Position numbers and translations under genes: made by a program
Shown here: positions 4,770-56,543 of the stretch, in pieces
How positions within the stretch are numbered: the stretch's first letter is position 1
How the letters are laid out: each line of letters starts with the position of its first letter
NCBI RefSeq assembly: GCF_026210795.1
Contig: NC_089444.1
Span: 2,470,501 to 2,534,500 of the forward strand
Direction of reading: 5' to 3'
DNA: 64,000 nucleotides
Origin: Rhizophagus irregularis
Taxonomy: Eukaryota > Glomeromycota > Glomeromycetes > Glomerales > Glomeraceae
Notes under the pieces: generated by a model
The model's database searches: none
Seen by the model: only the letters and a program-made list of their open reading frames with translations
Told to the model about the DNA's origin: nothing

Positions 4770-5400
4770 CAGAGGGAAAAAAAGCCAAACCGAAAAAGGA
4801 AAAGGGGAAAAAATTTTTCGGATTGGAAAAAAAGCCAACCAGAAACGAAAAAAAAAATTGTGGGGGAGGAACAAAGAGAATAATCGGATTGAAAAAAGAA
4901 ACCGAAAAAAAAAATTCGAAAAAAAAGAAAAAAAAAATTTGGGGAAAAGAAAAAGGATAAAGAAAAAAATTGGTTTTAAAAAAAAAATAAGTACCGAAAA
5001 AATTCTGAAAAAAAAGGACAATAATTCGATCCAATAAGACCGAAAAAAAATTATTAATATGGTTTAAAAAAAAAGACCAATAAAAGTCTTAAAAGATTAT
5101 TTAAAAAAAAAATAAAAAAAATAATAATAATTTTTCGGTTTTGAAAAAAAAAACTGAATCCGGGAAAAGAATGAAAAAAAAAACAAAAAAAAAGGAGGAA
5201 AAAAACGAAACATTTTTAAAAAAAGAAAAAAAAGGAAAAGAAAAGGATGCTTCGAAAGAGAAACGAGGAAATTTGAAAAAAAGTAAGAACCATTTGTAAA
5301 AGATCGGTTTAAGAAAAGGGGGAACCGGAAAAATTTAGATTGAAAAAACTGGTAAAAAAATAAAAAATTCAGATTAAATTTCATTAACCGGAATATTGGA
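4770..5400. repeat. Purine-rich low-complexity tract, inverted relative to 58080-58450
   Basis: About 630 bp consisting almost entirely of A and G on the plus strand, built on AAAAAACCGAAAAAA-like words. The long minus-strand open frames here are only poly-Phe/Leu translations of this tract. The piece around 4981-5034 (AAGTACCGAAAAAATTCTGA, then GGACAATAATTCG) is the reverse complement of sequence at about 58305-58350, so the two tracts are diverged inverted copies. A third related tract lies at 61130-61350 on the plus strand. Confidence 0.6.
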
Positions 5401-5971: not shown

Positions 5972-8900
5972 ATGTTTCCTCAAAATATACCTTTAACAGA
6001 AGATAATATTCTGGAATATTTAGAAACCAATTTTACAAATTGGACTAGCGGAAATGAAAAAATCAATAGTTTCATTAAAGAAAGGCAATTAAAAATAAAT
6101 GTCTATGATTATAATGATATAGTGCTTGAATGGATACCATACAATCAGTTTAATGAAGTTAAAGAGACAGGCAAAAATGGTCTTATAACAGTATATTCAG
6201 CAATATGGAAGGATGGTCCATTACGCTATATTGAACAGGATGAAAATTATACTAGAGATTCAAATAAAAAAGTTGCTTTAAAATGTTTTCATAATTCACA
6301 AGAATCCATTGATTCTTTAATAAATGAGGTATGAAAATCTTTAATTATTTAAATGTTTATTCTAATATATTTACATCTCTTTTATTTATATTTAGGCTAA
6401 AAAATATTCAACAAACCATAGAGCAATTCAAGTATTGTATGGAATATCTCAAAATCCAGATACAGGAAATTTTATTTTTGTTCAAAGCTATACCATAAAC
6501 TTGACAAATTGGATTAGTGGAAATGAAAAAATTGATGATTTCATTCAAGAAAGGCAATTAAAAATAAATGGCTATGATGATACTATAGTGCTTGAATGGA
6601 TATCATACAATCAGTTTAATGAAATTAAAGAGACAAGCAAAAATGGTCTTATAACAGTATATTCAGCAATATGGAAGGATGGTCCATTATATAAGAAGCA
6701 TTGGCGGGATGAAAATTATACAAGAGATTCAACTAAAGAAGTTGCTTTAAAATGTTTACATAATTCACAAGAATCCATTGATTCTTTAATAAATGAGGTA
6801 TGAAAATCTTTAAATATTTAAATATTTTTTTTGATTAATATATTTACAATCTCTTTTATTTATATTTAGGCTAAAAAATATTCAACAAACTATAGAGCAT
6901 TTCAAGTGTTGTATGGAATATCTCAAAATCCAGATACGGGAGATTATATTTTTGTTCAAAATTATATAGTAAAATTGACAAATTGGATTAGTGGGAATGA
7001 AAAAATTGATGATTTCATCCAAAAAAGGCAATTAAAAATAAATGACTATAATGATATAGTACTTGAATGGATACCATATAACCAGTTTAATGAAATTAAA
7101 GAGTTCAGCAAAAATGAACTTATAACAGTATATTCAGCAATATGGAAGGATGGTCCATTATATAAGAAGCATTGGCGGAATGAAAATTATACAAGAAATT
7201 CAAATAAAGAAGTTGCTTTAAAATGTTTACATAATACACAAGAATCCATTGATTCTTTAATAAATGAGGTATGAAATTTCTTCAAATATTTAAATACTTT
7301 TTTAATTATATATTTACAATCTCTTTTATTTATATTTAGGCTAAAAAATATCCAACAAGAATTAGAGCATTTCAATTATTGTATGGAATATCACAAAATC
7401 CAGATACAGGAAATTATATTTTAGTTCAAAATAATTCTATAAATTTAGTAAATTGGATTAGTGGAAATGAAAAAATTGATGTCTTCATTCAAGGAAGACA
7501 ATTAAAAATAAATGGCTATAATGATATAATGCTTGAATGGATACCATACAACCAGTTTAATGAAATTAAAGAGTTAGGCAAAAATGGTCTTATAACAATA
7601 TATTCAGCAATATGGAAGGATGGTCCATTATATAAGAAGTATTGGCAAGATGAAAATTATACAAGAGATTCAACTAAAGAAGTTGTTTTAAAATGTTTAC
7701 ATAATTCACAAGAATCCATTGATTCTTTAATAAATGAGGTATGAAATTTCTTCAAATATTTAAATACTTTTTTAATTAATATATTTACAATCTCTTTTAT
7801 TTATATCTAGGCTAAAAAATATTCAATAAATCATAATGCATTTCAAGTATTGTATGGAATATCCCGAAATCCAAATACAGGAGATTATGTTTTGGTTCAA
7901 AATAATTATATATGGACAAGTGAAAATGAAAAAATTGATGACTTCATTCAAGGAAGGCAATTAAAAATAAATAACTATGATGATATAGTGTTTGAATGGA
8001 TACCATACAACCAGTTTAATGAAATTAAAGAGACAAGCAAAAATGGTTTTATAACAGTATACTCAGCAATATGGAAGGATGGCCCATTATATAAAAAATA
8101 TAACCAGAGTAATAATTATACAAGAGATTCAAATAAAGAAATTGCTTTAAAATGTTTATATAATTCACAAGAATCTATTGATTCTCTAATAAATGAGGTA
8201 TGAAATTTCTTTAAATATTCAACTATTTTTATTAATTAATATATTTACAATCTCTTTAATTTATAATTAGGCTAGAAAATATCCAACAAAAATTAGAGCA
8301 TTTCAAGTATTGTATGGAATATCCCAAAATCCAGATACAGGAGGTTACATTTTAGTTCAAAATAATTCTATAAATTTAGTAAAATGGATCAGCGGAAATA
8401 AAAAAATTGATGACTTTATTCAAGGAAGGCAATTAAAAATAAATGACTATAATGATATAGTACTTGAATGGATACCATACAACCAATTTAATGAAATTAA
8501 AGAGACAGGCAAAAATGATATTTTAATGGTATATTCAGCAATATGGGGGGATGGTCCATTGTATTGTCAGTATAATAATGAATATACAAGAGATTCAAAT
8601 ACAAAAGTTGCTTTAAAATATTTATATAATTTACAAGAATCCATTGATTCTTTAATATATGAGGTATAAAATTTCTTCAAATACTTAAATACTTTTTTAA
8701 TTAATATATTTACAATCTCTTTTATTTATATCTAGGCTAAAAAATATCTAACAAATCATAATTCATTTCAAGTATTGTATGGAATATCTCAAAATCCAGA
8801 TACTGGAGATTATATTTTGGTTCAAAATAATTATATATGGAAATGTGAAAATGAAAAAATTGATAATTTCATTCAAAAAAGGAAATTAAAAATTAGTAAT

Positions 8901-11900
8901 TATGATGATGTAGTGCTTGAATGGATACCATACAATCAGTTTAATGAAATTAAAGAGACAGGCAAAAATGCTCTTATAACAGTATATTCAGCAATATGGA
9001 AGGATGGTCCATTATACAAGAAGGGCCAGTTGAACAATTATACAAGAGATTCAAATAAAGAAGTTGCTTTAAAATGTTTATATAATACACAAGAATCCAT
9101 TGATTCTTTAATAAATGAGGTATGAAAATTTTTCAAATATTTAAGTACTTTTTAATTAATATATTTACAATCTCTTTTATTTATATTTAGGCTAAAAAAT
9201 ATTCAATAAATCATAATGCATTTCAAGCATTATATGGAATATCTCAAAATCCAAATACAGGAGATTATATTCTTGTTCAAAGAAACTTGACAAATTGGAT
9301 TAGTGGATATGAAAAAATTGATGATTTCATTCAAGAAATGCAATTAAAAATTGATAACTATGATGATATGGTGCTTGAATGGATACCATACAATCAGTTT
9401 AATGAAATTAAAGAAACAGGCAAAGATGGTCTTATAACAGTGTATTTAGCAATATGGAAGGATGGTCCATTATATAAGAAGCATTGGCAGGATGAAAATT
9501 ATACAAGAAATTCAAATAAAGAAGTTGCTTTAAAATGTTTACATAATTCACAAGAATCCATTGATTTTTTAATAAATGAGGTATGAAATTTCTTCAAATA
9601 TTTTAAATACTTTTTAGTTAATATATTTACAATCTCTTTTATTTATATTTAGGCTAAAAAATATCTAACAAATAATAATGCATTTCAAGTATTATATGGA
9701 ATATCTCAAAATCCAGATACAGGAGATTATATTTTTGTTCTTACCCGGATAAGTGGAAATGAAAAAATTGATAATTTCATTCAAGAAAGGCAATTAAAAA
9801 TAAATGATTATAATAATATAGTGCTTGAATGGATACCATACAACCAGTTTAATGAAATTAAAGAGACAGGCAAAAATGCTCTTATAACAGTATATTCAGC
9901 AATCTGGAAGGATGGTCCATTATACAAGAAGGGCCAGTTGAACAATAATTATACAAGAGATTCAAATAAAGAAGTTGCTTTAATATTTTTACATAATTCA
10001 CAAGAATCAATTGATTCTTTAATAAATGAGGTATAAAATTTCTTCAAATATTTAAATACTTTTTAATTAATATATTTACAATCTCTTTAATTTATAATTA
10101 GGCTAGAAAATATCCAACAAAGTATAAAGCATTTCAAGTACTGTATGGAATATCTCAAAATCCAGATACAGGAGATTATATTTTTGTTCAAAGACACTTG
10201 ACAAATTGGATTAGTGGAAATGAAAAAATTGATGATTTCATTCAAGAAAGGCAATTAAAAATAAATGACTATAATGATGTAGTGCTTGAATGGATACCAT
10301 ACAACCAGTTTAATGAAATTAAAGAGACAGGCAAAAATGCTCTTATAACAGTATATACAGCAATCTGGAAGGATGGTCCATTATACAAAAAGGACCAGTT
10401 GAACAATTATACAAGAGATTCAAATAAAGAAGTTGCTTTAAAATGTTTACATAATTCACAAGAATCCATCGATTCTTTAATAAATGAGGTATGAAGTTTC
10501 TTCAAATATTTAATACTTTTATTTTCTAATTAATATACTGTATTTACAATTTCTTTTATTTATGTTTAGGCTAAAAAATATCCAACAAAACATGAAGCAT
10601 TTCAAATATTGTATGGAATATCTCAAAATCCAGATACAGGAAATTATATTTTTGTTCTTATCTGGACAAGTGGAAATGAAAAAATTGATGATTTCATCCA
10701 AGAAAGGCAATTACAAATAAATGACTATAATGATGTAGTATTTGAATGGATACTATACAGTCAGTTTAATGATATTAAGGAAATAGGTAAAGGTGGTTTT
10801 TCTACAGTATATTCAGCAGAATGGAGGGATGGTCCATTAGAGTATGATGTAGATAAAAAAATCTATAATAGAAATCCAAATAAAGTAATTGCTTTGAAAT
10901 GTTTGCATAATTCCCAAAGTATTACAGACAAATTTTTAAATGAGGTATGAAACTTTTTTAAAAGAATCACTATAATATTATTTTAAGCACAATGTAATAA
11001 TTATTTTTTGATATCAATGTATTTTAATAGGTTAAAGAGTACTCAATAAATAAAAGTAGTAATATTCTTAATGTATATGGAATATCTCAAAATCCAGATA
11101 CAAAAGAATATATTATGGTTCTCCAATATGCAAAAGAAGGCAATTTTAATCATTGGATAAATAAAAACTATGAATATTTTAATTGGAAGGATAAACTATC
11201 TGCATTAATCGATATTATTAATGGTCTTAAAGAAATTCATCAAAGAAATTTAGTTCATCGTGATTTTCATACAGGAAATATATTATTTTTGAATTTCATA
11301 AATCATTTTAGTAATTGTGTATTAATTTCAGATATGGGATTATCTGGAGAAGTTGATAATATAGATGAAACAAAAATTTATGGAGTTATGTCTTATGTGG
11401 CTCCTGAAGTATTAAGAGGAAAACCTTATACTCAAGCAGCAGATATCTATAGTTTTGGAATGATAATGTATTTTGTAGCAACTGGAAAACAACCTTTTGG
11501 CAATCGTGCACATGATTATGATTTGGCATTAGATATTTGCAAAGGAGTTAGACCTGAAATAAATAAATCAGAAGTACCAAGATGTTATTTTGATTTAATG
11601 AAAAAGTGTTGGGATTTAGACAAAAATAATAGACCAGATGTTTTTGAGTTAGATAAATTAATCAAATCATTTTATGGGTTATATGTGGAGGATTTAGTTA
11701 TTTTTGGGAATGAAGAAATTAAAATACAATTTGAGGAAACAGAAGAATATAGAAAAACAAATTTTTCACCCACTGAAAACTACCAAACAGTTACCCATCC
11801 ACAAGCTATTTATACATCTCGATTACTTAATCATATTACAAAAGAACTTCCAAAAAATGAGGATGATTATAATTCTCAATCTTTGGATTATTGTGCACTC

Positions 11901-11924
11901 CCAATTAGAAATGATATACAATGA
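5972..11924 (+). CDS. Kinase A: tandem array of 11 kinase N-lobe exons plus one C-lobe exon
   Basis: Predicted protein kinase of the tyrosine-kinase-like type. My exon model: 5972-6328, 6396-6797, 6870-7268, 7340-7738, 7811-8197, 8271-8663, 8736-9119, 9191-9580, 9653-10030, 10102-10488, 10570-10944, 11031-11924; 5145 nt, 1714 aa. Every junction is phase 0 with GTATGA/GTATAA donors and TTAG or CTAG acceptors (TAATAG for the last). Exons 1-11 each hold a Trp-x-Ser-Gly linker, Glu-Trp-Ile-Pro-Tyr, a glycine loop, a VALK-type beta3 strand and the Asn-Glu of helix C; exons 2-11 begin with beta4-beta5 (YGISQNPDTG). Exon 12 carries HRDFHTGN (catalytic Asp about residue 1495), SDMG in place of DFG, APE, and NRPD. 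Glycine loop GKGGFS survives only in exon 11. Exon 9 has Ile for the beta3 Lys (VALIFL). I chose the ATG at 5972 because the same context precedes kinase B. The kinase family is clear; that all exons are joined in one mRNA is inference. Confidence 0.8.
6396..11030 (+). repeat. Tandem exon-intron repeat units of kinase A
   Basis: Ten successive units of about 450-475 bp, each one exon (375-402 bp) followed by one intron (about 67-86 bp). Neighbouring units are very similar in both exon and intron, including the intron words TTAATTAATATATTTACAATCTC and TTTATTTATA, which shows duplication of whole genomic units and probably recent exchange among them. Each intron begins GTATGA or GTATAA, so reading on from the exon gives a stop as the second intron codon. 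Confidence 0.85.
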
Positions 11925-16278: not shown

Positions 16279-17832
16279 TTAAAAATCTTCAAATTCTTCT
16301 ACAAATTTTAATTTATATTTAACAACCAAATCACGATATTTTTGAATTTTAATATTGTATAACTCAAATTCCTTCACTTCATCTTTAAATGAAAACAAAT
16401 CAGTAGTAAAATTGATAATAGCCAAATATTTGATTCTTTTCTTTTTCATAATATATTCTTTTATATAGGATAAAAAAAAATCATGAGTATCACGACATTC
16501 CTCATCATCTTTAATTCTCCTATCTTTGATTAACAATTTTTTAATAAAAGTATCCTGAGAATTTTTTAAGAACATTTCAAAATCATTTTTATATTTAATA
16601 GTAAGAGTTAAACTTAAATATTCTAATTTAAGAGGAAGTAATTGACCTAAATTTTGTAATGTAATTGAACTAAGTTCAGTAGTATTTGAAAAACCAAAAT
16701 TGTCAAAGATATTGATAGAAAGATGATTAAGATTTTGTTTCACATTCTCAATTAAATTGAATAACGAATAAATAATCTGAATATTATTAATTACAGTTAA
16801 ATCAAGAAATTTAATATTTTTACAATATTTTATAATAAATTCAAGTAATTGTTGCTCCTCAGATAACGAATTAGAACCAAATCTACATGCAAAATTTTCT
16901 AAATAATCACCATATTTTTGTAATAATAATTGTAATGATTCAACAATTTGTAATTCACTACTATATAAGAATAAAGATTTTAACTTAAATGGTTTAGTTA
17001 AGTTAATTATTTGTTGAATAAAATCAGTACCTAAAATACAATAAATGATATGAACGGATTCTAAAACATTTAATTGTTCAAATATGTTATCTAAATTGGT
17101 TATAACTTTAAAATTGAGGCGAAATAAGATGATTGTATTTAAAGTATTTGACGAATGATTATAATCATTTGACAACAATGATGTTTGGTATAAAGGAAAA
17201 CTATTATTATAAGCTAATGAAATTTTTTTAAGATTTTGACATAAATTGATCATTTGAGACATACGATTATCAGTATAGAAATTAATACAACAGAGTTTTA
17301 AATTTCTAATATTATGAAGGAAATCTGGGTTTTGTAAAATTAATTCAAGCATGTCATCAATATAGGGAAAATTGGCCTTAATATCAAAAGTATATATATT
17401 TACTTCATTTTCAATAAAAATTTTAAATAATGAGATGTAAATTAATCTCTTAAATTCAGGTATTGATCTATTTTCGAGTTCAATATCTTTAGACCATTCT
17501 TCAATAGAAGAAATAATTTTCCCTGTATACAAGTATTTTAAAAATATGGGATAATTAAAAAGTGTATTTGAAGGAAATAATTTATCATCAATTTTATATT
17601 CATTTAATTGTGCTTTTAAATCACCATTTAAATTACGTAAATAAATTCCAATAAAGTTATAATTTTCGTTAGAAATTAAAAATGGATTTTCCCATAATAA
17701 TGGAATCGCTAAACGACACCATAATCTATTAACTAATATACACGAATATAAAGTTGAAAAATCATTCTTAAAATATTTTATAACATCATATGTTAATTCA
17801 GGTAAATCTGAAAATATTTTTGAATATGACAT
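16279..17832 (-). CDS. F-box protein with leucine-rich-repeat-like region
   Basis: Single-exon gene of 517 aa, ATG at 17830-17832 and TAA at 16279-16281. An F-box lies at about residues 6-50, with the sequence LPELTYDVIKYF, a central Cys-x-Leu-Val-Asn-Arg-Leu-Trp-Cys-Arg, and Pro-Leu-Leu-Trp-Glu-Asn-Pro-Phe closing it. The rest is a row of short Leu/Ile/Asn-rich segments (for example around residues 175-190, 250-265, 335-350, 385-410) consistent with degenerate LRRs. Family role: the F-box binds Skp1 in an SCF ubiquitin ligase and the repeats select substrates. Length, single-exon structure and motif order are usual for the greatly expanded glomeromycete F-box family. A degraded relative lies at 58630-58880. 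The substrate is unknown. Confidence 0.88.
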   Translation of the reverse strand: MSYSKIFSDLPELTYDVIKYFKNDFSTLYSCILVNRLWCRLAIPLLWENPFLISNENYNFIGIYLRNLNGDLKAQLNEYKIDDKLFPSNTLFNYPIFLKYLYTGKIISSIEEWSKDIELENRSIPEFKRLIYISLFKIFIENEVNIYTFDIKANFPYIDDMLELILQNPDFLHNIRNLKLCCINFYTDNRMSQMINLCQNLKKISLAYNNSFPLYQTSLLSNDYNHSSNTLNTIILFRLNFKVITNLDNIFEQLNVLESVHIIYCILGTDFIQQIINLTKPFKLKSLFLYSSELQIVESLQLLLQKYGDYLENFACRFGSNSLSEEQQLLEFIIKYCKNIKFLDLTVINNIQIIYSLFNLIENVKQNLNHLSINIFDNFGFSNTTELSSITLQNLGQLLPLKLEYLSLTLTIKYKNDFEMFLKNSQDTFIKKLLIKDRRIKDDEECRDTHDFFLSYIKEYIMKKKRIKYLAIINFTTDLFSFKDEVKEFELYNIKIQKYRDLVVKYKLKFVEEFEDF

Positions 17833-19216
17833 ATTCAGTTGTAAGCGAAGAGAAATAAAGAGATATTGTTAGTGTATCACTTTATAAATGGTAATTTCCG
17901 GTATTGTCGCACAATCCATGTGGTGTAACATGCTCAATAATGAGGCGTAAAAAAAGGTGTTACAATTCGAATCACGATGATGATCACGGAAATTATAATT
18001 ACCAGCAACATCCAAGTACTGATACTTTCCATATTTTTAAAGCATCCCTTTAATTCTATATATACTTATTTGGAGTTTTAATAAATTCATACTCGAAAAT
18101 TTATTTATTGAAACCGAAAGAATTTAATAGTATGAAATATTATTACAAAGATCGTCGGTCACGTGGAAATTATACATTGGTCGGCCATTCTAATTGTCCG
18201 ATATACCGATTAAGTTATATTTTTCTGTAAATATAACTTATATCTTATCCAACTTATATAATATATAACTTATATCAAATTTAGATAGTTATAAATATCG
18301 CCAGCGATCGGTCAAGAAGAAGAGCGAATGGATTTAGAATTAGTTTGATAATTCGATAGTTCCTTTAGACATATTGCAAATCGCCGGTTGGGGCAGCAAT
18401 ATTGATTTGCGTTTTATTATCGACATATATTCTTATTTTATATTTATTCTATCGTTTATTTCATTTCTATTGTATAAATCTTATCATTAATCGATAAAGC
18501 ATACATTTTTCGCATATATATGTTACATATAACATAATACATTGTTTCCTAAATCTTATACATTTTATTCTTGCACACAGATCGTCCGGGAATTATCAAA
18601 ATGCAATTTTACTTCAGTTCGCATAGATTTTACTAAGTAATGTTAAATTTTGTTATTGGTATATTACTTTTATTATTTCAATTTGACTAAACCAAAAAAG
18701 ATATATCTTTTTTTAAAAAAAACATTAGTAATCCTAAGAAACACTCGTTATATTACAAAATAATTTATTGTTCCTTATTCTAGATGCATTATTGTATTAA
18801 GGTCATAATATATTTTAAACCATTGATAAATATATAATAATATATGTCACCTCGATTTAACAGCTGGTCATATTTAATTTCATGAGAAAATTTTATAGTT
18901 AACTTACTTAGATTATACACTATACGTGGGCGTTCCTAATTTTTAATTGACAATATTTATTTAAATAATAATTAATTTTAATAATAATACTTTTAAATAA
19001 TTTTCTAATTAATAATAAAATGAGATTGTAATAAAAAATATGCTATATTTATATATTATCTTTAAAAATCATTATGACTTTCTTTTTGTTTTCATGAGAA
19101 GGTTGTTCATTTTTTTGTAAATCTTCAGGCTTCAGCTTCAAATATAGGAATCCATTTAGGTACAGAATTAACTTTTAGAATAAAAGATATCACTGCTGAT
19201 TAAACAAAAGAAATAA
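17833..19216. other. Intergenic upstream of the F-box gene
   Basis: Holds the F-box promoter on its left edge. Around 18160-18380 are GATCGG/CCGATC words (GGTCGGCCATTC, GCGATCGGTCAAG) like those in the elements at 30830-31060 and 37472-38110, suggesting an old element of the same type, but I cannot define its ends. No gene is seen. Confidence 0.4.
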
Positions 19217-34700: not shown

Positions 34701-36180
34701 TCATAAATTTTTTTCAAATAAATTCAATAAAAATAAATTTTTATTTTCAATTATTTGAAACACTTCATAATCTTCTATTTTAAAATAATTTCTTGGAATT
34801 CCTATATTAGGATAACGGTCCCCATCATAATTAGTCCATACATTCTGGTTGCAGTGTAAATTTCCCATGGTTGGTCCATAAGTACTATAACAATAAACAG
34901 CATAATCTTGTTTACTAACATAACCTACTTTTGCGGTAGAAATCTTTTTTCCATCTGTAAAATTAAAAATAAAGCTATCTCCTGTAGTTTTCCAAACAGC
35001 ATTATTACCATTCCAATCAAGTGGATTATACCCTCCAATTATTTGTGCAGAATTTTTAATTTTTGCTACCCAAATAGTAGCTCCCTTATTGTCACAATTT
35101 TTATGAAAAGTATTAGTGTCAGTTCCATCCCGATTTGAACGGTATAATAATTTAAAATCATGAAATATTTTCCATATTATAATGTGCTCTATCAATCCAT
35201 GAAGCAAGAATAGGAATATATTTTGATTCAATCAAGGTTGAATCAAGATGATACTTTAAATTTGGTTTTCTTGAGGGTGGTAAATTAGCTTTAGATTTCA
35301 TGTTAGGAACTATATGAAATTCTAAAAGATCATGAATTAAATCATGTGGTAAGATGTCTTTATAACAATAAACTTTGTAAAAGAAATCTGTAGGTTCAAT
35401 ATCATAAAATCGAATTAAAGGAATAAATCTGTATAATTCTCTTTCAACTCTTATAATATCTTCTTTACTCCATTTTGTTGGATCATTCTTTATATTTTGT
35501 TGAGCAAAACACCATTTTAATAAATTCTCCCAAATTTCAATTTCATCCATATTTAAATCGTCTCTTTTTAATAATAATTCTAATAAAGGAGCTTTTAAAT
35601 TAATAAATTTATGTTCTTCACAAATTTTTTCAAGACAAAAATTCCATAAGTCCGTAAATGTTTCATGTTGATAAACTGTTTCAAGAATTCCAGTTGGATT
35701 TTGTTGTAAAAATTCAGTTTTATGTTCAATCAAAAATTCTTGAATGTGGGAAACTAAAGAATTGATATTTAGTTCATCCACAGCTATCAACAACTCTAAT
35801 ACATCAGGACCTTGTAAATTTTTCAATTCAATATTTCCACAATAAATGAACCTAATATATTTAAAAGTTATGATAAATTTTTTTATTCACACAATTTAAA
35901 TTTTTCTAAATTATTAAAATTATTACCTAAGAATAATATTAAATAATTGAGGTGAAATATTTGGCTTTTTAAAAATAAATTTTCCATCTCTTTTCTCAGC
36001 CCATTCATTAGAAAATGCAGAACGGAAATATTGAGACCTAATACACAAAATATTTGAATGAGCATGAATTTCCTTCATATTTTGCCCTTCTCCGGCATAA
36101 ACAATAACGTCATATCCAATTTCTGTTTCAAAAAGTTTTTCATAGTCATTAGATAATTCTGCCAAAAAATTTGAAGACAT
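34701..36180 (-). pseudogene. BTB-BACK-TLDc protein gene with a frameshift before TLDc
   Basis: Minus strand. Exon 1 is 35927-36180 (ATG at 36178-36180), with an intron at 35852-35926 (GTAATA...TTAG). Exon 2 runs from 35851 to the frame break near 35158-35170. Exon 1 and the start of exon 2 form a BTB domain: GYDVIVYAGEG, His-Ala-His-Ser-Asn-Ile-Leu, Arg-Ser-Gln-Tyr-Phe-Arg-Ser-Ala-Phe, and RFIYCGNIEL across the splice. A BACK-like helical region follows (LEKICEEHKFI to LLELLLKRDDLNMDEIEIWE). The TLDc domain is in the frame open to the stop at 34701: LLYRSNRDG, GATIWVAKIKN, IIGGYNPLDW, DSFIFNF, and IEDYEVFQI at its end. BTB-TLDc proteins are a large glomeromycete family; BTB often recruits Cul3 ligase, and TLDc is linked to V-ATPase/oxidation response in other organisms. 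One base change of length between BACK and TLDc breaks the frame with no GT-AG intron available there. It could be a recent pseudogene or a sequencing error. Confidence 0.75.
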
Positions 36181-39741: not shown

Positions 39742-42700
39742 TTAATATAAGTTCTCGATATATTTACCATCAGGAATTTCCAACTCATCTTGATCTTCTG
39801 AATTAGTTATACCTACATAGTCTTTTTCTTTTAAATTAAGAAAAATATTCTATCATCAAATTATACTATACTTTTTGATTATTTTTTTACTATCCAATGA
39901 GATGATATTATTAGTTTATATTAGTTAAAATAATTTACCTGTAGTTATTCTGTTCGTTCTTGATGATTCTGCCAAATCTTTACTCGAGATATTACCAACT
40001 AAAGTAATTAAATGGATAAATCATAAACTACATGTACAGTAGTAATACAGTATTTATAAAAAACATTCAAACGAAAACTTACTGGAATATTCTCTGCTAC
40101 TATTTATTATGCCAATAAGTACACTGCTATCATGCGCACAAGTGTCTATAAATAAGATATTAATAAGTTATGAAAATAACATATTATATCATATATTTTA
40201 ATAAACATTCAAACGAAAACTTACTGGAATATTCCCTGCTACTATTTGACATGTCAATAAGTACACTGCTATCATGCGCACAAGTGTCTATAAAATAAGA
40301 TATAATTAATAAGTTATAAAATAACATAATATATCATATATTTTAATAAACATTAAAACGAAAACTTACTGGAAAATTCTCTGATACTATTTGACATGTC
40401 GATAAGTACACTGCTATCATACGCACAAGTGTCTATAAAATAAGATATAATTAATAAGTTATAAAATAACATAAAATATAATATATTTTAATAAACATTC
40501 AAACGAAAACTTACTGGAATATTCTCTGCTACTATTTAATATGATAGTTTCACTGCTATTATACGCAAAAATGTCTATAAAATAAGATATAAATTAATAA
40601 GTTATAAAAAACATAATATATCATATATTTTAATAAATGCCTACCTTTTTCCACTATTATCATTTGTTTGAAAAAGTATGATTATTAATAAGCATGATAA
40701 TTATAAAATTAATTAACAGTTAATTCTTTAATATATGTATTAGAATAAAATCTTACTTCTTGTAGATAAATCAATTGAATTAGATTTCATGTTATAATGA
40801 TTAGTATTTATATTATTATTTGCTTGTTGTAATAATTCATTTTCATTTCGATTATCGTCTAGAATTAAATTTAAGCAAATAAACAATTTTTCATTTTTTT
40901 CGATAAAATTACAATTGATGTCTTACCATTTTCGGAATTTATCCTTAGACTTTTAAATTTATCCGTCAAATTTTTACTAAGATCTAATTGAGTTTTTAAA
41001 AATGGTTACTTTTTGAATAATATAAATTATAATATAATAGTAATTTTAATTACCTTTAAAATACTTCTTTATTTTCAATGTACTTGATTTATCTAAAATT
41101 CAATCAAAATTAATAAAAAAAATCACATTATAAAAAAAAAACAATGTTTTAATACTGTTTTAATACTTACTACTATCAGAAAGATTAAAAGCATAAGGTT
41201 TACTATGAAATGCTATCAATATAAATGCATGTATCAGTAATTATAATAAACACTACTTATTATATTATAATAAATTATATACCTCTTTGTTCCTCTATTT
41301 TGGTCGAATCAAAAAAATTTATAAATTAGTTCACAACTTTTAAATATAATAATTCATACAAAAAATATGATTTAGTACCTTCTGTCGCATTTTTAGGTTC
41401 TAATGATGGTAAATGTTCAAAGTTATAAAATTTACTTGTAATCAATCGGCTTCCATAGTTTGTTTTGGAACTTTTACTTTTGTTTGACTGAAAAAATTGA
41501 TACAAATTAATATTGTGCTTATGAAATGGCTCATTGTATAGTTCATTTGAACCGTCTTGATAATATAAATTTCTAATTTCAAATATTTTATTATAAAGAC
41601 GATCTATGTCAGGTCTTTCTGATGGATCAGCATCCCAACATTGTTCCATTAACTGCTTATATTCTAAAGGAGTATCTGGTACAATGTTTGGTCTCATTCC
41701 ATTAATAATATTCATTGCAAGTTCGTAACCATGTTTATGATTATTAAATGGTGGTTTTCCGGATGAAATTTCCCACATGAGCATTGCAATACTATAAATA
41801 TCAGATGCAAAAGAATAATCCTTTCGAAATAAAATCTCAGGTGCTATATAAGGAAGATTTCCATATACGTTCGTTAATGGTTTATCAGCTGGTCCTGAAA
41901 ATCCAAAATCAGAAATGCACCATAAATTTGCACTTTGTAAATATAATATATTCCCAGAATGTAAATCCCTATGAATTGTATTCCCTTTGTGAATTTCGTA
42001 AAATGCTTTTATTATATCACAAATTATGTTAATTCTCATTTTCCATGTAAGTTTATTATGGTTATGGCGTAAATAACTTCTTAAGTCAACATCCATTTTC
42101 TGTAATACAAGCATATATTTTCTATTTGGATTGATAGTTAAACCGAAACATTTAACAACGCCTAAAGATTTATTACTTGTTATTAAATGTGATTTAGCCT
42201 GTAAAGAATTTTATTAAAAAAAGTTTAATTTACATAAAAATTAAATGATCGATAATATCTTAAAAAATAATATACTTTACCTCATCAAACCAACTCACGT
42301 TTGCGCCTTCAACATTTTCTAACGTTTTAAGTATTACTTTAAGCTTACCAAACCTTTTTAATTGTTGATTTCTAGAATCCCATTTGTCATAAGGCCCATC
42401 AGTCCATTCTGCTGTATAAATTTTAGAGACTCCTCCTTTAGTTAAGTACTTAATATTTTGAAAATTATTATATGGTATCCATTCAATTATCCTAGTTGGA
42501 GCAACTGATTCCATTTGACAATTACGTATTAAATTATCTACATCATCATGTTCAGATGTCCAATTTGAAAAATATGCTTTTAAATAATTTCGAATACATA
42601 TTTCACAATAAAATGTGGCTAAACATTCACATAAACAATTTTCACAAATTCTTCTTTCGCCTTCGTTCTTAATAATTTTAAAAGAGTCATAACTCTCGTC

Positions 42701-42877
42701 TATTATTCTTGCTGTTTCTGCTTTTTCATCTTTTGTAAGAGAATTATCAGCAAAAATTATTCCATTTAATAATTTCTGTTGATTGGTTAAGTCGTAATTA
42801 AGATTAGGATTCTTATCCGCTTCACTAAAAGCTTCTTGAATTGCTGCATAAACTAAGTTTTTACGAATAGCAAACAT
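39742..42877 (-). CDS. Kinase C: protein kinase with a many-exon tail containing tandem micro-exons
   Basis: Minus strand, 14 exons: 42281-42877, 41379-42198, 41283-41294, 41171-41212, 41054-41092, 40927-40983, 40757-40858, 40645-40653, 40515-40574, 40370-40432, 40225-40287, 40083-40145, 39939-39998, 39742-39827; 2073 nt, 690 aa, one open frame through all junctions. The N-terminus has a Cys cluster (C78, C81, C83, C85, C91, C94) like a small zinc-binding module. Then come FSNWTS and EWIPYNNFQNIKYL, glycine loop TKGGVS (first Gly replaced by Thr), beta3 VILK (Lys about 184), IHRDLHSGN (Asp about 277), SDFG (about 296) and IAPE. So it keeps all catalytic residues except the first loop glycine. 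Kinase-domain exons join at Asp-Glu|Ala, the same phase-0 position used by kinases A and B. The tail, residues about 473-690, is Ser/Asn-rich. Substrate unknown. Confidence 0.85.
40083..40574 (-). repeat. Four tandem micro-exons in the tail of kinase C
   Basis: Exons 9-12 (60, 63, 63 and 63 nt) and their introns (about 79-82 bp) form a tandem repeat of about 142-145 bp. Each exon starts ACA, ends TTCCA|GTAAGTTTTCG and is phase 1 at both ends, so copies can be skipped without a frameshift. The encoded 20-21-aa unit keeps Cys/Phe-Ala-(Tyr/His)-(Asp/Asn)-Ser-Ser near its start and Asn-Ser-(Ser/Ile)-Arg-Glu-(Tyr/Phe)-Ser at its end. Exon 9 is the most diverged copy. Confidence 0.8.
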
Positions 42878-43095
42878 GAAAGGTGCAAAAAAAAAAACTT
42901 TTAAATAATTTGGGTGAAATCAAATCGTTTCACAAAATTCTGAAACGGATTCTCTAATTCGATATTGATATCAATATTACGAACAATATTCTTTTATATA
43001 TTAAAAAAAAAAAATTGCTCATGATCTGATCAAAAATCCAAGAGCTAACCATATTAACATCAAGGGATTATGAATTTGCTGGTAAAAATCCACCT
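42878..43095. promoter_or_regulatory. 5' flank of kinase C
   Basis: AT-rich region upstream of the ATG at 42877. An A-rich tract lies at 42889-42900 just before the start and another at 43005-43015. No specific site is claimed. Confidence 0.3.
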
Positions 43096-48807: not shown

Positions 48808-51800
48808 ATGTTTTCTCAAAATATACTTTCTGAATATTTTAAAAACAATTTTGCAAATTGGACAAGTGGAAATAAAAAAATTGATGATTTCATTCAAGAA
48901 AGGCAATTAAAGATAAATGATGATGACTATAATGATATAATGCTTGAATGGATACCATACAATCACTTTAATGAAATTAAAGAGACAGGTAAAAATGGTC
49001 TTATAACAGTATATTCAGCAATATGGAAGGATGGTCCATTATACAGGGAGTATAGTTATAGTAGTTATACAAGAGATTCATCAAATAAAAATGTTGCTTT
49101 AAAATGTTTATATAATTCACAAGAATCCATTGATTCTTTAATAAATGAGGTATGAAATTTATTTATATTTAAATCCTCTTTTCTAATTAATATATTTACA
49201 ACTTTTTTATTGATAACTAGGTTAATAAATACCCAACAAATTATAATGCATTTCAAGTATTGTATGGAATATCCCAAAATCCTGAAACAGGAGATTATAT
49301 TCTTGTTCAAAATAGTTCTATAAACTTAACAAATTGGATCAGTGGAAATGAAAATATTGATGATTTCATACAAGAAAGGCAATTAAAAATAAATAATTAT
49401 GGCTACAATGATATAGTAATTGAATGGATACCATACAGCCAGTTTAATGAAATAAAAGAGACAGGAAAAAATGGCTTTATAACAGTATATTCAGCAATTT
49501 GGTTAAATGGTCCAATATATTATCATTATGGTAAATACATAAGAAATTCTAACAGAGAAGTTGATTTAAAATGTTTATATAATTCACAAGAATCCATTGA
49601 TTTTTTAATAAATGAGGTATAAAATTTCTTTAAATATTTAAATACTTTTTTTTTAATTAGTGTATTTACAACTTTTTTCATTGATAACTAGGCTAATAAA
49701 TACCCAACAAATAATAAAGCATTTCAAGTATTATATGGAATATCTCAAAATCCTAACACAGGAGATTATATTTTGGTTCAAAATAGTTATATAAACTTCG
49801 AAAATCAGATCAGTGGAAATGGAAAAATTGACGATTTCATTCAAGCAATGCAATTAAAAATTAATAAATACGAAGATACAGTATTTGGATGGATACCATA
49901 CAATAAATTTAACGAAATTAAAGAGATAGGAAAAAATAGCATTATAACAGTATATTCAGCAATTTGGGTAGATGGTCCAATGTATTATAAGTATGAAAAC
50001 TACTATACTAAAGATTCAAATAAAAATGTTACTTTAAAATATCTACATAATTCACAAGAATGCGTTGATTTTTTGATAAATAAGGTATGAAATTTCTTTA
50101 AATATTTAAATACTTTTTTTTAATTGTATTTACAACTTTTTTATTGATAATTAGGCTAAAAAATATCCAATAAAATGTAAAGCATTTCAAGTATTGTATG
50201 GAATATCTCAAAATCCTAATACAGGAGATTATATTTTGGTTCAAAATAGTTGTATAAACTTGGCAAACCAGATCAGTGGAAATGAAAAAATTGATGATTT
50301 CATTCAAGAAAGACAATTAATAATTAGCAACTATAATGATATAGTGTTTGAATGGATACCATACAATAAGTTTAATGAAATTAAAGAAACAGCAAAAAAT
50401 GACTCTATAACAGTATATTCAGCAATTTGGATAGATGGTCCAATATATTATAAGTATGGAAATTATGCTAGAGATTTAAATAAAAATGTTACTTTAAAAT
50501 ATTTGCATAATGTACAAGAATCCATTGATTTTTTGATAAATGAGGTATGAAATTTTTTTAAATATTTAAAAACTTTTTTTAAGTATATTTACAACTTTAT
50601 TTTATTGATAACTAGGCTAATAAACACCCAACAGATCATAAAGCATTTCAAGTATTATATGGAATATCTCAAAATCCTAATACAGGAGGTTATATTTTGG
50701 TTCAAAATAGTTGTATAAACTTGACAAATCAGATCAGTGGAAATGAAAAAATTGATAATTTCATTCAAGAAAGACAATTAAAAATTAGTAACTATTATGA
50801 TGATATAGTGCTTGAATGGATACCATACAATAAGTTTAATGAAATTAAAGAAATAGGAAAAAATGGCTTTATAACAGTATACTCAGCAATTTGGGTATAT
50901 GGTCCAATATATTATATGTATGGAAATTATACTAGAGATTCAAATAAAAATGTTACTTTAAAATATTTACATAATTCACATAATTCACAAGAATCCATTG
51001 ATTTTTTAATAAATAAGGTATTAAATTGTTTCTTAAAAAATTTTTTTTTTAATTAGTGTATTTCAATTTCTTTTATTGATAATTAGGCTAAAAAATATCC
51101 AACAAAACGTAAAGCATTTCAAGTATTATATGGATTGTCTCAAAATCCTAATACAGGAGATTATATATTGGCTCTTAACTGGACAAGTGGAAATGAAAAA
51201 ATTGATGATTTCATTCAAGAAAGGCAATTTAAAATAAATAATTATGGCTATAATGATATAGTATTTGAATGGATACCATACAATAAGCTTAATGAAATTA
51301 AAGAGCTAGGAAAAAATGGCCTTATAACATTATATTCAGCAATTTGGTTAGATGGTCCAATATATTATCATTATGGTGAATACATAAGAAATTCTAACAG
51401 AGAAGTTGATTTAAAATGTTTACATAATTCACAAAAATCTATTGATTCTTTAATATATGAGGTATGAAAATTCTTTAAATATTTAAATACTTTTTTAATT
51501 AATATATTTACATCTACTTATTTCATTTAGGCTAAAAGATATTCAACAGATAAAAATGCATTTCAAGTATTGTATGGAATATCTCAAAATCCAGATACTG
51601 GAGATTATATTTTTGTTCAAAATAATTCTATAAACTTAGCAAATTCGATCAGTGGAAATGAAAAAATTGATAATTTCATTCAAGAAATGCAATTAAAAAT
51701 TAAATATGAAGATGTAATATTTGAATGGATACCATATAATCAGTTTAATGAAATTAAAGAGACAGACAAAAATGGTCTTATAACAGTATATTCAGCAATA

Positions 51801-54800
51801 TGGAAGGATGGTCCATTATACAAGGAAAATAAATGGAATGATTATACAAGAAATACAAATAAAGAAGTTGCTTTAAAATGTTTGCATAATTCACAAACAT
51901 CTATTGATTCTTTATTAAATGAGGTAGAAATTTCTTTAAGTACTTAAAAACTTTTTCTTAATTATTTACAATTCCCTTTATCTAGGCTAAAAAATATCCA
52001 ACAAAATATAAAGCATTTCAAGTATTGTATGGAATATCTCAAAATCCTAATACAGGAGATTATATTTTAGTTCTTATCTGGACAAGTGGAAATGAAAAAA
52101 TTGATGATTTTATTCAAGGAAGGCAATTAAAAATTAGTAACTATGATGATGTAGTACCTGAATGGATACCATACAATAAGTTTAATGAAATTAAAGAGAC
52201 AGGTAAAAATGGCCTTATAACAGTATATTCAGCAATATGGAAGGATGGTCCATTATACAAGAAGTATAGTTATAGTAGTTTTACAAGAGATTCAAATGAA
52301 AAAGTTGCTTTAAAATGTTTATATAATTCACAAGAATCCATTAACTCTTTAATAAATGAGGTATGAAATTTCTTTAAATATTTAAATACTTTTTTTAATT
52401 AATATATTTACTTCTATTTTATTATATTTAGGCTAAAAGATATTCAACGGATAAAGATGCATTTCAAGTATTGTATGGAATATCTCAAAATCCAGATACT
52501 GGAGATTATATTTTAGTTCAAAATAATTTTATAAACTTATCAAATTGGACCAGTGGAAATGAAAAAATTGATAATTTCATTCAAGAAATGCAATTAAAAA
52601 TTAATAAATATGAAGAAACAGTATTTGAATGGATACCATATAATCAGTTTAATGAAATTAAAGAGACAGGTAAAAATAATTCTTTAACAGTATATTCAGC
52701 AATATTGCAGGATGGTCCATTATACAAGGAGTATAGTTATAGTAGTTATACAAGAGATTCAAATGAAAAAGTTGCTTTAAAATGTTTACATAATTCACAA
52801 AAATCCATTGATTCTTTAATAAATGAGGTATGACATTTCTTTAAATATTTAATTACTTTTTTAAGTGTATTTACAACTTTTTTATTGATAATAACTAGGC
52901 TAATAAATATCCAACAAATTATAAAGCATTTCAAGTATTGTATGGAATATCCCAAAATCCTGATACAGGAGATTATATTTTAGTTCAAAATAATTCTATA
53001 AACTTATCAAATTGGATCAGTGGAAATGAAAAAATTGATAATTTCATTCAAGAAATGCAATTAAAAATTAATAAATATGAAGAAACAGTATTTGAATGGA
53101 TACCATATAATCAGTTTAATGAAATTAAAGAGACAGGTAAAAATGATTCTTTAACAGTATATTCAGCAATTTGGGAGGATGGCCCATTATTTCACATGAA
53201 GTATTTACAAAATCATTATGTAAGAAAACGATGTATAAAAGTTGCTTTAAAATGTTTGCATAATTCACAAGCATCTATTGATTCTTTATTAAATAAGGTA
53301 TGAAATTTCTTTAAGAACTTAAAAGCTTTTTTTTTAATTATTTACAATTTCCTTTATCTAGACTAAAAAATATCCAATAAAATATAAAGCATTTCAAGTA
53401 TTATATGGAATATCTCAAAATCCAGATACAGGAAATTATATTTTCGTCCAAAATAATTATATGTGGACAAGTGGAAATAAAAAAATTGATGATTTCATTC
53501 AAAAAAGGCAATTAGAAATAAATAACTATAACTATGTTAATATAGTGCTTGAATGGATACCATATAATCAGTTTGATGAAATTAAAGAAACAGGCAAAAA
53601 TTGTTTTATAACAGTATATTCAGCAATATGGAATAATGGTCCATTACATTATAATGAAAAATATAGTAATTATACAAGAGATCCAAATAAAGAAGTTTCT
53701 TTAAAATGTTTACATAGCTTAAAATATTCCATTGATTTTCTAATAAATGAGGTATAATATTTCTTTAATATTTAAATATTTTACTTAATATAGTATTTAC
53801 TATTCATTTATTTATTTTTCAGGCTAATAAATATTCAACAAAAAATGAGTCATTTCACATATTGTATGGAATATCTCAGAATCCAAATACAAATGAATAC
53901 ATTTTAGTCCAAAATTATTCTATAAACTTAATAAATTGGATGAGTAGAAATGAAAAAATTGATAATTTCATTCAAGATATACAATTAAAAATTAATTATT
54001 ACTCAGATGTAATATTTGAATGGATACCATACAATCAGTTTAATGAAATTAGAATGACAGGCAAAAATGGTTCTATAACTGTGTATTCAGCATTATGGAA
54101 TGATGGTCCATTACATTATAATAAAAAGTATAGTAATTATACAAGGGATTCAAATAGGAAAGTTGCTTTAAGATGTTTGCATGGCTCAAAAAATATTGTT
54201 GAATTTGTAATAAATGCGGTATATAATTTATATAACCTTTTTAATAATTTTATTATAATCATATTAATTTTACATCTATTTTAGGTTGAAAAATATTTGA
54301 TAAATACATTTAGTAAAGATAATTTTGTTATATATGGAATATCCCAAAATCCAGATACAAATGATTATATTTTGGTTCTTGCATGGACAAGTGGAAATGA
54401 AAAAATTGATGATTTCATTCAAGAAATGCAATTATTGAATCAGTCTGATGTAATATTTGAATGGGTACCATACAATCAGTTTAATAAAGTTAATGAGATA
54501 TACAAAAATGGTTCTATTTCAATATATTCAGCAATATGGACAGATGGTCCATTACATTATAATAAAAAGTATGATAATTATGCAAGAGATGCAAATAAAG
54601 AAGTTGTTTTAAGATGTTTGCATGATTCACAAAATATCATTGAACTTGTAATAAATGAGGTATAAAATTTACATAATCTCTTAATATTTTTTTTATTGTA
54701 ATTTATTAATTTCTCATCTATTTTTAGGCCAAAAAATATTTAACAGACACATTTGGTAAAGAAATCTTTGATATATATGGAATATCTCAGAATCCAAATA

Positions 54801-56543
54801 CAGATAGTTATATATTGGTTTTAAGAAATTTTATATTAGTAAGTGAGAATAAAGAAATTGATGATTTTATTCAAGAAAAACAATTAAAAATGAATACATA
54901 TGAAGATACTGTATTTGAATGGATACCTTACAATCGACTCAATGAAATTGGTGAATTAAGTAAAAATGGTTCTAATTCAATACATTCAGCAATATGGAAG
55001 GATGGCCCATTACATTATAATAAAAAGTATAGTAATTATACAAGAGATTCAAATAAAAAAGTTGTTTTAGAATATTTGCATAATCCAGAAAATTCTATTG
55101 ATTTCCTAATAAATGAGGTATAAATTTTCAAATATTTTACTAATCTTTTAATAAAATATATTAATTCTTTATTTGTATACTAGACCAAAAAATATTCAAC
55201 AAAAATATTTGAAAGAGCGATTTGTGATATATATGGAATATCTCAAAATCCAAATACAAATAATTATATTCTAGTTCTCTCATGGGCAAGTGGAGATAAA
55301 AAAGTCGATTGTTTTATTCAAGATATTCAATTAAAAATAAATGATTATGATGATATAGTATTTGAATGGATACAATACAGTCAGTTTAGTAACATTAAGG
55401 AAAAAGGTAAAGGTGGCTTTTCTACAGTATATTCGGCAAGATGGAAGGATGGTCCATTAGAATATGATGCAGATAAAAAAATATATATTAGAGATCCAAA
55501 TAGAGTAATTGCCTTAAAACGTTTACATAATTCACAAAATATTACTAAGAAATTTTTAAATGAGGTATGAAATTTCTTCAAAAAATTTTTTGTAATAGAG
55601 AATTTTTTAAATATGTTAAGCATAATGTAGTAATTATTATTTATTATGAATGAATTAATTTTAATAGGTTAAAGAATACTCAATAAATAAAAGTAGTAAT
55701 ATTCTTAATATATATGGAATATCTCAAGATCCAGATACAAAAGAACATATTATAGTTCTTAATTATGCAAAAGATGGAAATTTTAATCATTGGATGAATG
55801 AAAATTATAAATATTTTGGTTGGAAAGATAAATTATCTGCATTGCTTAATATTATTAGTGGTCTTAAAGAAATTCATCAAAAAAATTTAGTTCATCGTGA
55901 TTTTCATACAGGAAATATTTTATTTTTAAGAAGTAGAGATAATTTTGGTAACTATATATCAATTTCAGATATGGGATTATGTGGAGAAGTTGGTAATATA
56001 GATGAAACTAAAATTTATGGAGTCATGCCTTATGTAGCTCCTGAAATATTAAGAAGGAAGCCTTATACACAATCAGCAGATATCTATAGTTTTGGTATGA
56101 TAATGTATTTTGTGGCAACTGGAAGACAACCTTTTGATAATCATGCACATGATTATAATTTAGCATTAGATATTTGTAAAAAAGGAGTTAGACCTGAAAT
56201 AACTGAACCAGAAGCACCAAGGTGTTATATTGATTTAATGAAAAAGTGTTGGGACTTAAAACCAAATGATAGACCAGATATTTTTGAGGTAAATGAATCA
56301 ATCACATCATTTCACAAGTCATATGGAGGTGATTTTTCCATAGTAAATGAAGAAATTGAAATAATTGAAATGCAATTCAAAAAAGCTGAAGAATATAGAA
56401 AGGCAAATCTTCCAACCATTAAAAATTACAAAATAACTACTCATCCACAAGCTATTTACACATCTCGATTACTTAATCCTTTTACAGAAGATCTTCCAGC
56501 AGAGGATGATGATAATTCTCAATGTTTAGAACAAGCAATCTAG
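48808..56543 (+). CDS. Kinase B: tandem array of 15 kinase N-lobe exons plus one C-lobe exon
   Basis: Exon model: 48808-49149, 49221-49616, 49692-50084, 50155-50544, 50616-51017, 51087-51461, 51531-51923, 51986-52360, 52432-52827, 52899-53297, 53362-53751, 53823-54218, 54285-54659, 54728-55117, 55184-55564, 55668-56543; 6669 nt, 2222 aa, all junctions phase 0. Built like kinase A: linker with Trp-x-Ser-Gly, EWIPYN, glycine loop, beta3, helix C Asn-Glu, then beta4-beta5 in the next exon. Only exon 15 keeps GKGGFS with VIALK. Beta3 Lys is Arg in exons 12 and 13 and Glu in exon 14. The helix-C Glu is Lys in exons 3, 5 and 10 and Ala in exon 12. Exon 16 supplies HRDFHTGN (Asp about residue 2009), SDMG, VAPE and DRPD. 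The array's outer exons 12-14 are the most diverged; exons 2-6 and 7-10 form similarity groups. Full-length splicing is inferred. Confidence 0.8.
49221..55667 (+). repeat. Tandem exon-intron repeat units of kinase B
   Basis: Fourteen units of about 435-485 bp with the same exon and intron plan as in kinase A. Three introns have donors that do not give an immediate stop (GTATTA at 51018, GTAGAA at 51924, GTATAT at 54219). The rest begin GTATGA or GTATAA. Acceptor contexts fall into two groups, GATAACTAG/GATAATTAG (mainly introns 1-5 and 9) and TATTTAG/CATTTAG, matching the similarity groups of the exons and pointing to block duplications of several units. Confidence 0.8.

Follow-up and report, generated by a model that had tools for sequence, protein, structure and literature searches.

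What kind of protein is made when one half of a kinase is repeated many times ahead of a single copy of the other half? This question is raised by a gene on the forward strand at positions 5972-11924 of a 64,000-nucleotide stretch of the genome of Rhizophagus irregularis, a root-symbiotic fungus (NCBI RefSeq assembly GCF_026210795.1, contig NC_089444.1, positions 2,470,501 to 2,534,500; the whole of this stretch is hereafter called the window, and supplies all coordinates unless stated otherwise). The amino-terminal lobe of a kinase (N-lobe) is usually regarded as one part of a two-part catalytic unit, the other part being the carboxy-terminal lobe (C-lobe). A first-pass annotation of the sequence had proposed that twelve GT-AG exons form one frame in which the N-lobe block occurs eleven times and HRD, DMG, and APE only once, and both statements are borne out. 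The frame spliced from the window DNA comprises 12 exons encoding 1714 amino acids (aa) plus a stop codon, with the length of all 12 exons divisible by three, all exons in phase 0, and 11 introns of 67-86 nucleotides (nt) that begin with GT and end with AG in every case (11/11). Every intron is placed directly after the codon of the alphaC glutamate. The block running from EWI..QF to INE is present in 11 copies, HRD, DMG, and APE are present once each, and the frame as a whole is composed of N-lobe units, a C-lobe, and a short tail. The exons are as follows.

5972-6328 (+): exon 1; start codon (ATG at 5972), short leader, linker helix SGNEKINSFI, and beta1-beta3-alphaC of N-lobe 1 (glycine loop GKNGLI; loops of the later exons likewise in brackets); donor GTATGA
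6396-6797 (+): exon 2; beta4-beta5 of N-lobe 1, linker helix, and beta1-alphaC of N-lobe 2 (SKNGLI)
6870-7268 (+): exon 3; repeat exon, start of N-lobe 3 (SKNELI); 6969-7166 left out by the deposited protein P0125
7340-7738 (+): exon 4; repeat exon, start of N-lobe 4 (GKNGLI)
7811-8197 (+): exon 5; repeat exon, start of N-lobe 5 (SKNGFI)
8271-8663 (+): exon 6; repeat exon, start of N-lobe 6 (GKNDIL)
8736-9119 (+): exon 7; repeat exon, start of N-lobe 7 (GKNALI)
9191-9580 (+): exon 8; repeat exon, start of N-lobe 8 (GKDGLI)
9653-10030 (+): exon 9; repeat exon, start of N-lobe 9 (GKNALI); beta3 Lys replaced by Ile (VALIF)
10102-10488 (+): exon 10; repeat exon, start of N-lobe 10 (GKNALI)
10570-10944 (+): exon 11; beta4-beta5 of N-lobe 10, linker, and terminal N-lobe 11 (GKGGFS, IALK, alphaC Glu)
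11031-11924 (+): exon 12; beta4-beta5 and the whole C-lobe (HRDFHTGN, DMG, APE; PF07714, E 5.7e-33), tail HPQAIYTSRLLN, and stop

The repeat exons share an order of elements in which beta4-beta5 (AKKY..YGISQNPDTG..YIFV) is followed by a linker with SGNEKIDDFIQ and then by beta1-beta3 and alphaC (EWIPYNQF..VYSAIWKDGP..VALK..NE). Exons 2-11 are permuted, in that exon borders differ from domain borders and N-lobe k is finished by exon k+1. N-lobes 1-10 lack a C-lobe, and N-lobe 11 together with exon 12 forms one intact kinase; no C-lobe match lies between the N-lobes of this gene, and the catalytic loop is absent from internal units 1-10. Pairwise identity among exons 2-10 is 82-94% in DNA and 68-86% in protein, versus 60-68% in protein when these exons are compared with exon 11. 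The C-terminal tail HPQAIYTSRLLN (window 11760-11860) also occurs in the consensus of 36 aligned relatives, and a long low-complexity A-rich stretch lies upstream of the gene (window 4780-5340).

Deposited proteins bear on how these exons are joined. The R. irregularis protein P0125 (OCT59_008306) corresponds to the spliced 1714-aa chain except for two gaps and keeps 11 N-lobe exons in one protein; both gaps are in-frame, and their lengths (198 and 396 nt) do not resemble those of the introns (67-86 nt). The partial protein P0241, taken from a different record of the same strain, matches residues 1254-1714 without gaps (461/461) and joins exons 10-11-12. The uncut form is likelier than the P0125 form, whose gaps would reflect either a mis-annotation or, if real, a kinase-dead splice form. 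According to the accessible part of PMC10234402, the gene models of the DAOM197198 assembly were built with Illumina and Nanopore RNA reads. We infer a transcript that is continuous over the 12 exons; a separate promoter for each exon, an arrangement considered in the first-pass annotation, is unlikely given the short introns (with an in-frame stop in 11/11) and the lack of a methionine before residue 50 in exons 2-11.

The gene belongs to a large family. Genome searches with two of the exons as queries (146.7 Mb in 32 contigs, with matching read through stops) gave 150 scored matches each, from 4,714 and 4,525 candidates, and both queries combined place the unit at no fewer than 218 positions; these group into at least 50 clusters spread over 14 contigs, with 32 clusters containing two or more places. 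At least 34 of the 50 clusters lie on one contig, NC_089444.1 (C16), between 2.40 and 4.69 Mb on both strands, a concentration that suggests regional amplification. Each search found an in-frame stop in only 2/150 scored matches, and a neutral simulation left 3% of exons stop-free at 12% divergence, a comparison biased towards intact copies since the scored matches are the best-scoring of more than 4,500 candidates. The scanned stretches contain 20 arrays with 4-27 N-lobe matches, 17 of which end in a C-lobe match; the longest (27 matches) may be two genes, as may the smallest (on contig C5), which has an additional C-lobe match after its first N-lobe. A second array of the family, longer than the first, is found within the window.

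48946-56543 (+): second array; 15 N-lobe matches, then one C-lobe exon

Full-length deposited relatives (120 listed of 310) come from R. irregularis, R. clarus, and Glomus cerebriforme, mostly carry merely generic names, and contain 5-19 N-lobes, with a C-lobe match in 96/120 that is the last in the chain. Shorter relatives (120 listed of 1,844), R. diaphanus included, have 0-6 N-lobe matches. The chain of C-lobe-less N-lobes ahead of a full kinase domain that the first-pass annotation described holds across the family. That annotation knew of no such architecture among described kinases, and no earlier description was recognised in the literature searched, where subscription papers were thinly covered. 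The gene is not a one-off, as deposited proteins in three species share the build. Together these arrays point to half-kinases as the building blocks of a repeat protein of an undescribed kind. In a set of 121 proteins chosen for further study (R. irregularis, 80; R. clarus, 37; G. cerebriforme, 4), a CxxC..WCxxC motif, possibly a metal-binding element of the linker, occurs at least once in 46 relatives and up to 12 times per chain (R. clarus P0176); the motif is not in the 5972-11924 array.

The internal and terminal N-lobes differ, most clearly in R. irregularis. The terminal domain carries a full set of kinase motifs (GKGGFS, IALK, LNE, HRDFHTGN, DMG, and APE), which we take to serve as the glycine loop, beta3 Lys, alphaC Glu, HRD Asp/Asn, DxG Asp, and APE, respectively. 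By sequence it is a TKL-like eukaryotic protein kinase (PF07714), and it is probably active. The glycine loop is intact only in exon 11, the second glycine being replaced in exons 1-10 by Asn (nine exons) or Asp (one exon). Across the window plus 20 fetched loci (231 N-lobe matches), the position of the second glycine is occupied by Gly in 18/18 readable terminal copies and Asn in 190/201 readable internal copies, and the beta3 Lys is kept in 187/202 internal copies; the W, Y, and A of VYSAIW are almost fixed in internal copies of R. irregularis. In the deposited proteins, the terminal second glycine is kept in 55/56 (R. irregularis), 30/31 (R. clarus), and 3/4 (G. cerebriforme) cases, and the internal position is Asn in 486/638, 111/279, and 6/16, respectively, and still Gly in 13/279 (R. 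clarus) and 5/16 (G. cerebriforme). The alphaC Glu position was counted in 172 internal genome exons (149 Glu, 22 Lys, and 1 Ala), and its near-invariance in the protein matches was set aside because local profile matches end there, clipping mismatches.

Trees lead to a similar division. In a tree of 190 exons (after removal of 7/197: two without edges, one of zero length, three shorter than 330 nt, and one with a stop), all 16 terminal exons fall in one clade of 17 with support of 1.0, the 17th member being the exon that ends an array in which no C-lobe was detected. The best split of a cross-species tree, built on ~67 residues per copy (support 0.92), places 86/92 terminal copies with 21 others; among the 12 of these listed, seven are from R. 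clarus and four are internal units that belong to a single G. cerebriforme protein. The two N-lobe classes thus predate the arrays of the R. irregularis genome, and probably also the split of R. irregularis and R. clarus, while a common origin before the split from G. cerebriforme is doubtful. The C-lobe-less N-lobes form a class apart, sharply so in R. irregularis, less strictly in R. clarus, and doubtfully in G. cerebriforme. The repeats are predicted to have an N-lobe fold, as AlphaFold2 (AF2) models of the relatives P0242 and P0278 contain N-lobe folds. A Foldseek search with a model containing the full kinase (N3C) was rejected as a test of the repeats because that kinase filled the match list, and an N-only model was built instead.

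The distribution of substitutions among internal copies (same exon set as the tree) is uneven. The pooled ratio of nonsynonymous to synonymous differences (pN/pS) is 0.63 for 873 within-array internal pairs versus 0.50 for 120 terminal pairs, and by region the internal copies show values of 0.54 in the core, 1.61 in the alphaC-beta4 loop, and 0.73 in the beta2-beta3 tip, the most variable region in both sequence and length. When equally sampled, internal copies have greater entropy than terminal copies in the two loops (2.18 versus 1.26 and 1.97 versus 1.33) and slightly greater entropy outside them (0.79 versus 0.62), and a window over the glycine loop gives a pN/pS of 1.26 in internal copies. 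These values are suggestive of diversification of loops on a conserved core.

The reading favored here, which we rate at slightly less than an even chance, is that of one long protein, made by cassette duplication, in which ten C-lobe-less N-lobes act as a docking or recognition array for one TKL-type kinase. The ten tandem N-lobes, joined by a conserved linker helix ahead of the complete kinase, would have been turned into a structural class that is probably not nucleotide-binding (the second glycine is lost and the beta3 Lys mostly kept). The array would present a multivalent docking or recognition surface varying at the alphaC-beta4 loop and the beta2-beta3 hairpin tip, with the terminal kinase as its output. 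Amongst the roles suggested in the first-pass annotation, docking or recognition fits best, suggestively, in view of the two variable loops and the conserved core. A bolder extension, which we regard as speculative and rather unlikely, is that arbuscular mycorrhizal fungi reused the kinase N-lobe as a repeated recognition module connected to a terminal kinase. Such repeat receptors would be a new class, whose phase-0 exon cassettes and two diversified loops would make it a kinase-built counterpart of the NLR repeat repertoires found in other fungi, for partner or self recognition. A large family of repeated N-lobes without C-lobes would show the lobe to be an independent, evolvable module, could account for part of the large kinase expansion in these fungi, and would offer a testable system with a single kinase output, a graded array, and a natural copy-number series.

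Several observations weigh against the favored reading. P0125 lacks 66 aa of exon 3 (6969-7166) and 132 aa of the C-lobe (~11223-11618), catalytic part included, and no C-lobe match was found in 24/120 deposited proteins or 3/20 genome arrays. Beyond R. irregularis the internal consensus is weaker (Asn at 111/279 in R. clarus; Gly at 5/16 in G. cerebriforme), and the four internal units on the terminal side of the tree belong to G. cerebriforme P0240. Within the gene the beta3 Lys is lost in exon 9, and the alphaC Glu is Lys in 22/172 internal genome exons. The AF2 models cover P0242 and P0278, not the 5972-11924 chain itself, and the N-only model gave only 23 Foldseek matches that reach E 0.001, among the best 50 of each list, with low TM-scores and one non-kinase among the 23. 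The signal in the alphaC-beta4 loop comes from five columns and a simple method, another five-column window reaches 1.64, and terminal exons give 1.09 in the same loop. Constraint is moderate (pooled within-array pN/pS of 0.63), and the median intron distance within arrays (0.154) is near the exon pN (0.133).

In a rival reading, the array would be a by-product, a cassette prone to tandem duplication because of short introns and high identity, whose extra copies are tolerated because it is in phase 0 and folds, with little role beyond that of a spacer. Recent block duplications, the wide spread of copy number, a pN/pS of ~0.6 with intron distance close to exon pN, the value of 1.26 at the internal glycine loop, and the looser internal consensus in other species all fit such an origin. 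It is nevertheless somewhat unlikely, as the internal copies of R. irregularis have a consensus of their own over many arrays (Asn in 190/201; almost no variation at W, Y, and A of VYSAIW), and 148/150 best-scoring copies are open in each search versus 3% under neutral drift at 12% divergence. Alternatively, the internal pseudo-N-lobes could pack on the terminal kinase or a dimer partner, with unit number tuning activity, much as packing sets kinase activity in the case of JH2 in JAKs and of RAF N-lobes. The beta3 Lys and alphaC Glu are mostly kept, so that the lobe could hold an active-like shape, and the top Foldseek chains among the matches listed are JAK dimers, though chain length alone may explain this. 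Up to 19 units exceeds the need of one regulator, however, and a fixed contact within the chain would not be expected with variable loops, making such allosteric control decidedly unlikely.

Two further explanations concern how the exons are used or assembled. The repeat exons are frame-neutral (phase 0-0), so any one can be skipped, and exon choice could in principle swap the N-lobe joined to the sole C-lobe and generate many kinase isoforms. This splicing pool, also among the roles first suggested, is weakened because the glycine loop is retained by the terminal N-lobe alone, and it is very improbable given that P0125 keeps 11 N-lobe exons (one in part) and P0241 joins exons 10-11-12. That the array is a non-coding relic or an assembly artefact rather than one gene, the latter raised in the first-pass annotation, seems hardly credible: repeats are difficult to assemble and the deposited models disagree in places, but exons 2-10 diverge by 6-18% in DNA, and since 14 contigs carry the unit, in at least 50 clusters, and other isolates and species have it too, the matches argue that the array is not an artefact of one locus.

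Returning to an array made by cassette duplication, its possible origin is illuminated by an ordinary kinase in the same window, taken as a reference for the ancestral layout.

41326-42919 (-): ordinary single kinase; one N-lobe exon and one C-lobe exon

The intron of this gene lies at the same alphaC Glu codon, in phase 0, as those of the array, and the shared position points to an ancestral intron (one neighboring single kinase was compared) that would explain the permuted repeat cassette. Ahead of its N-lobe are a CENC..YCEIC cysteine motif and an SNWTS linker, and Pfam gave no match on its first exon. The array would have started from a two-exon kinase gene of this kind, in which the end of exon 1 was duplicated together with the intron and with exon 2 as far as the end of beta5, producing a phase-0, frame-neutral cassette of ~460 bp that was then multiplied and shuffled by unequal crossing-over. 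We infer this route from sequence and consider it likely. A microhomology crossover between exon 1 (NFTNW) and exon 12 (NFNHW) was set aside because relatives have CxxC..WCxxC after beta5, and the breakpoint of this array may be secondary.

Turnover has occurred both within and between arrays. On the exon tree the array label switches 67 times, compared with a mean of 152 when labels are shuffled, showing that copies within one array tend to be related, and two arrays contain recurring blocks of two near-identical units. Units of the 5972-11924 gene are up to 95% identical to units of another array, P0131 (OCT59_008313), and at most 86% identical to their own neighbors, which indicates that whole arrays duplicate too. 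The best match of 292 R. clarus internal units lies in the same protein (93), in another R. clarus protein (106), or in another species (93), so that concerted evolution would be partial at most.

Several known systems resemble the array gene in part. JAK JH2-JH1 likewise has a degenerate kinase region beside an active kinase, but its pseudokinase JH2 is two-lobed and single, unlike the repeated N-lobes here. Amongst Rhizophagus TKL-type kinases (PF07714), to which the terminal N-lobe with exon 12 belongs, the ordinary kinase ~30 kb away shares the intron position and resembles the array gene in its linker; it has one N-lobe, whereas the array gene has ten C-lobe-less N-lobes before its kinase. 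The Rhizophagus kinase repertoire was put at 2,533 (PMC10234402), it is already known that these fungi have a large number of kinases (PMC10234402, PMC8647823, PMC6123716), and their high-copy genes have been proposed to serve environment perception (PMC8647823). The accessible part of PMC10234402 does not mention C-lobe-less N-lobe arrays, and the corresponding parts of PMC8778642 and PMC4219462 mention kinase expansions and no such architecture. Plant tandem kinase proteins also fuse a kinase with an inactive kinase-derived copy, as in wheat Pm57/Lr9, a kinase plus a pseudokinase discussed as an integrated decoy under relaxed constraint (PMC11153570, as far as accessible). Here the N-lobe alone repeats, ten times (up to 19 copies in deposited relatives), and the array gene is outside the plant type because it has only one C-lobe.

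A further analogy is with fungal NLR arrays. The accessible portions of work on het-d/het-e WD repeats (PMC1805685) and ANK/TPR arrays (PMC4986451) describe tandem repeats that are highly identical within an array, recombine, vary in copy number, and diversify at some positions of a conserved core. The likeness lies in such tandem arrays, with loops that vary on a conserved core, copy numbers that shift, and one output module, and may extend to diversifying positions. The differences are that the unit is a kinase N-lobe, the output is a kinase, grouping of copies by gene or species is only partial, and evidence of selection is weaker. Pfam found no NACHT/NB-ARC or WD/ANK/TPR domain on exons 1, 7, 11, and 12 (4/12 exons). 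By analogy the gene may work like these arrays, yet it is no member of them, because it has no NOD domain and a different repeat.

Elsewhere in the window, a 529-aa open frame on the reverse strand (16279-17868) has a weak F-box-like match. At 34701-35886 (reverse strand), two overlapping frames with a TLDc match and a weak BACK-like match are perhaps one gene of another expanded family.

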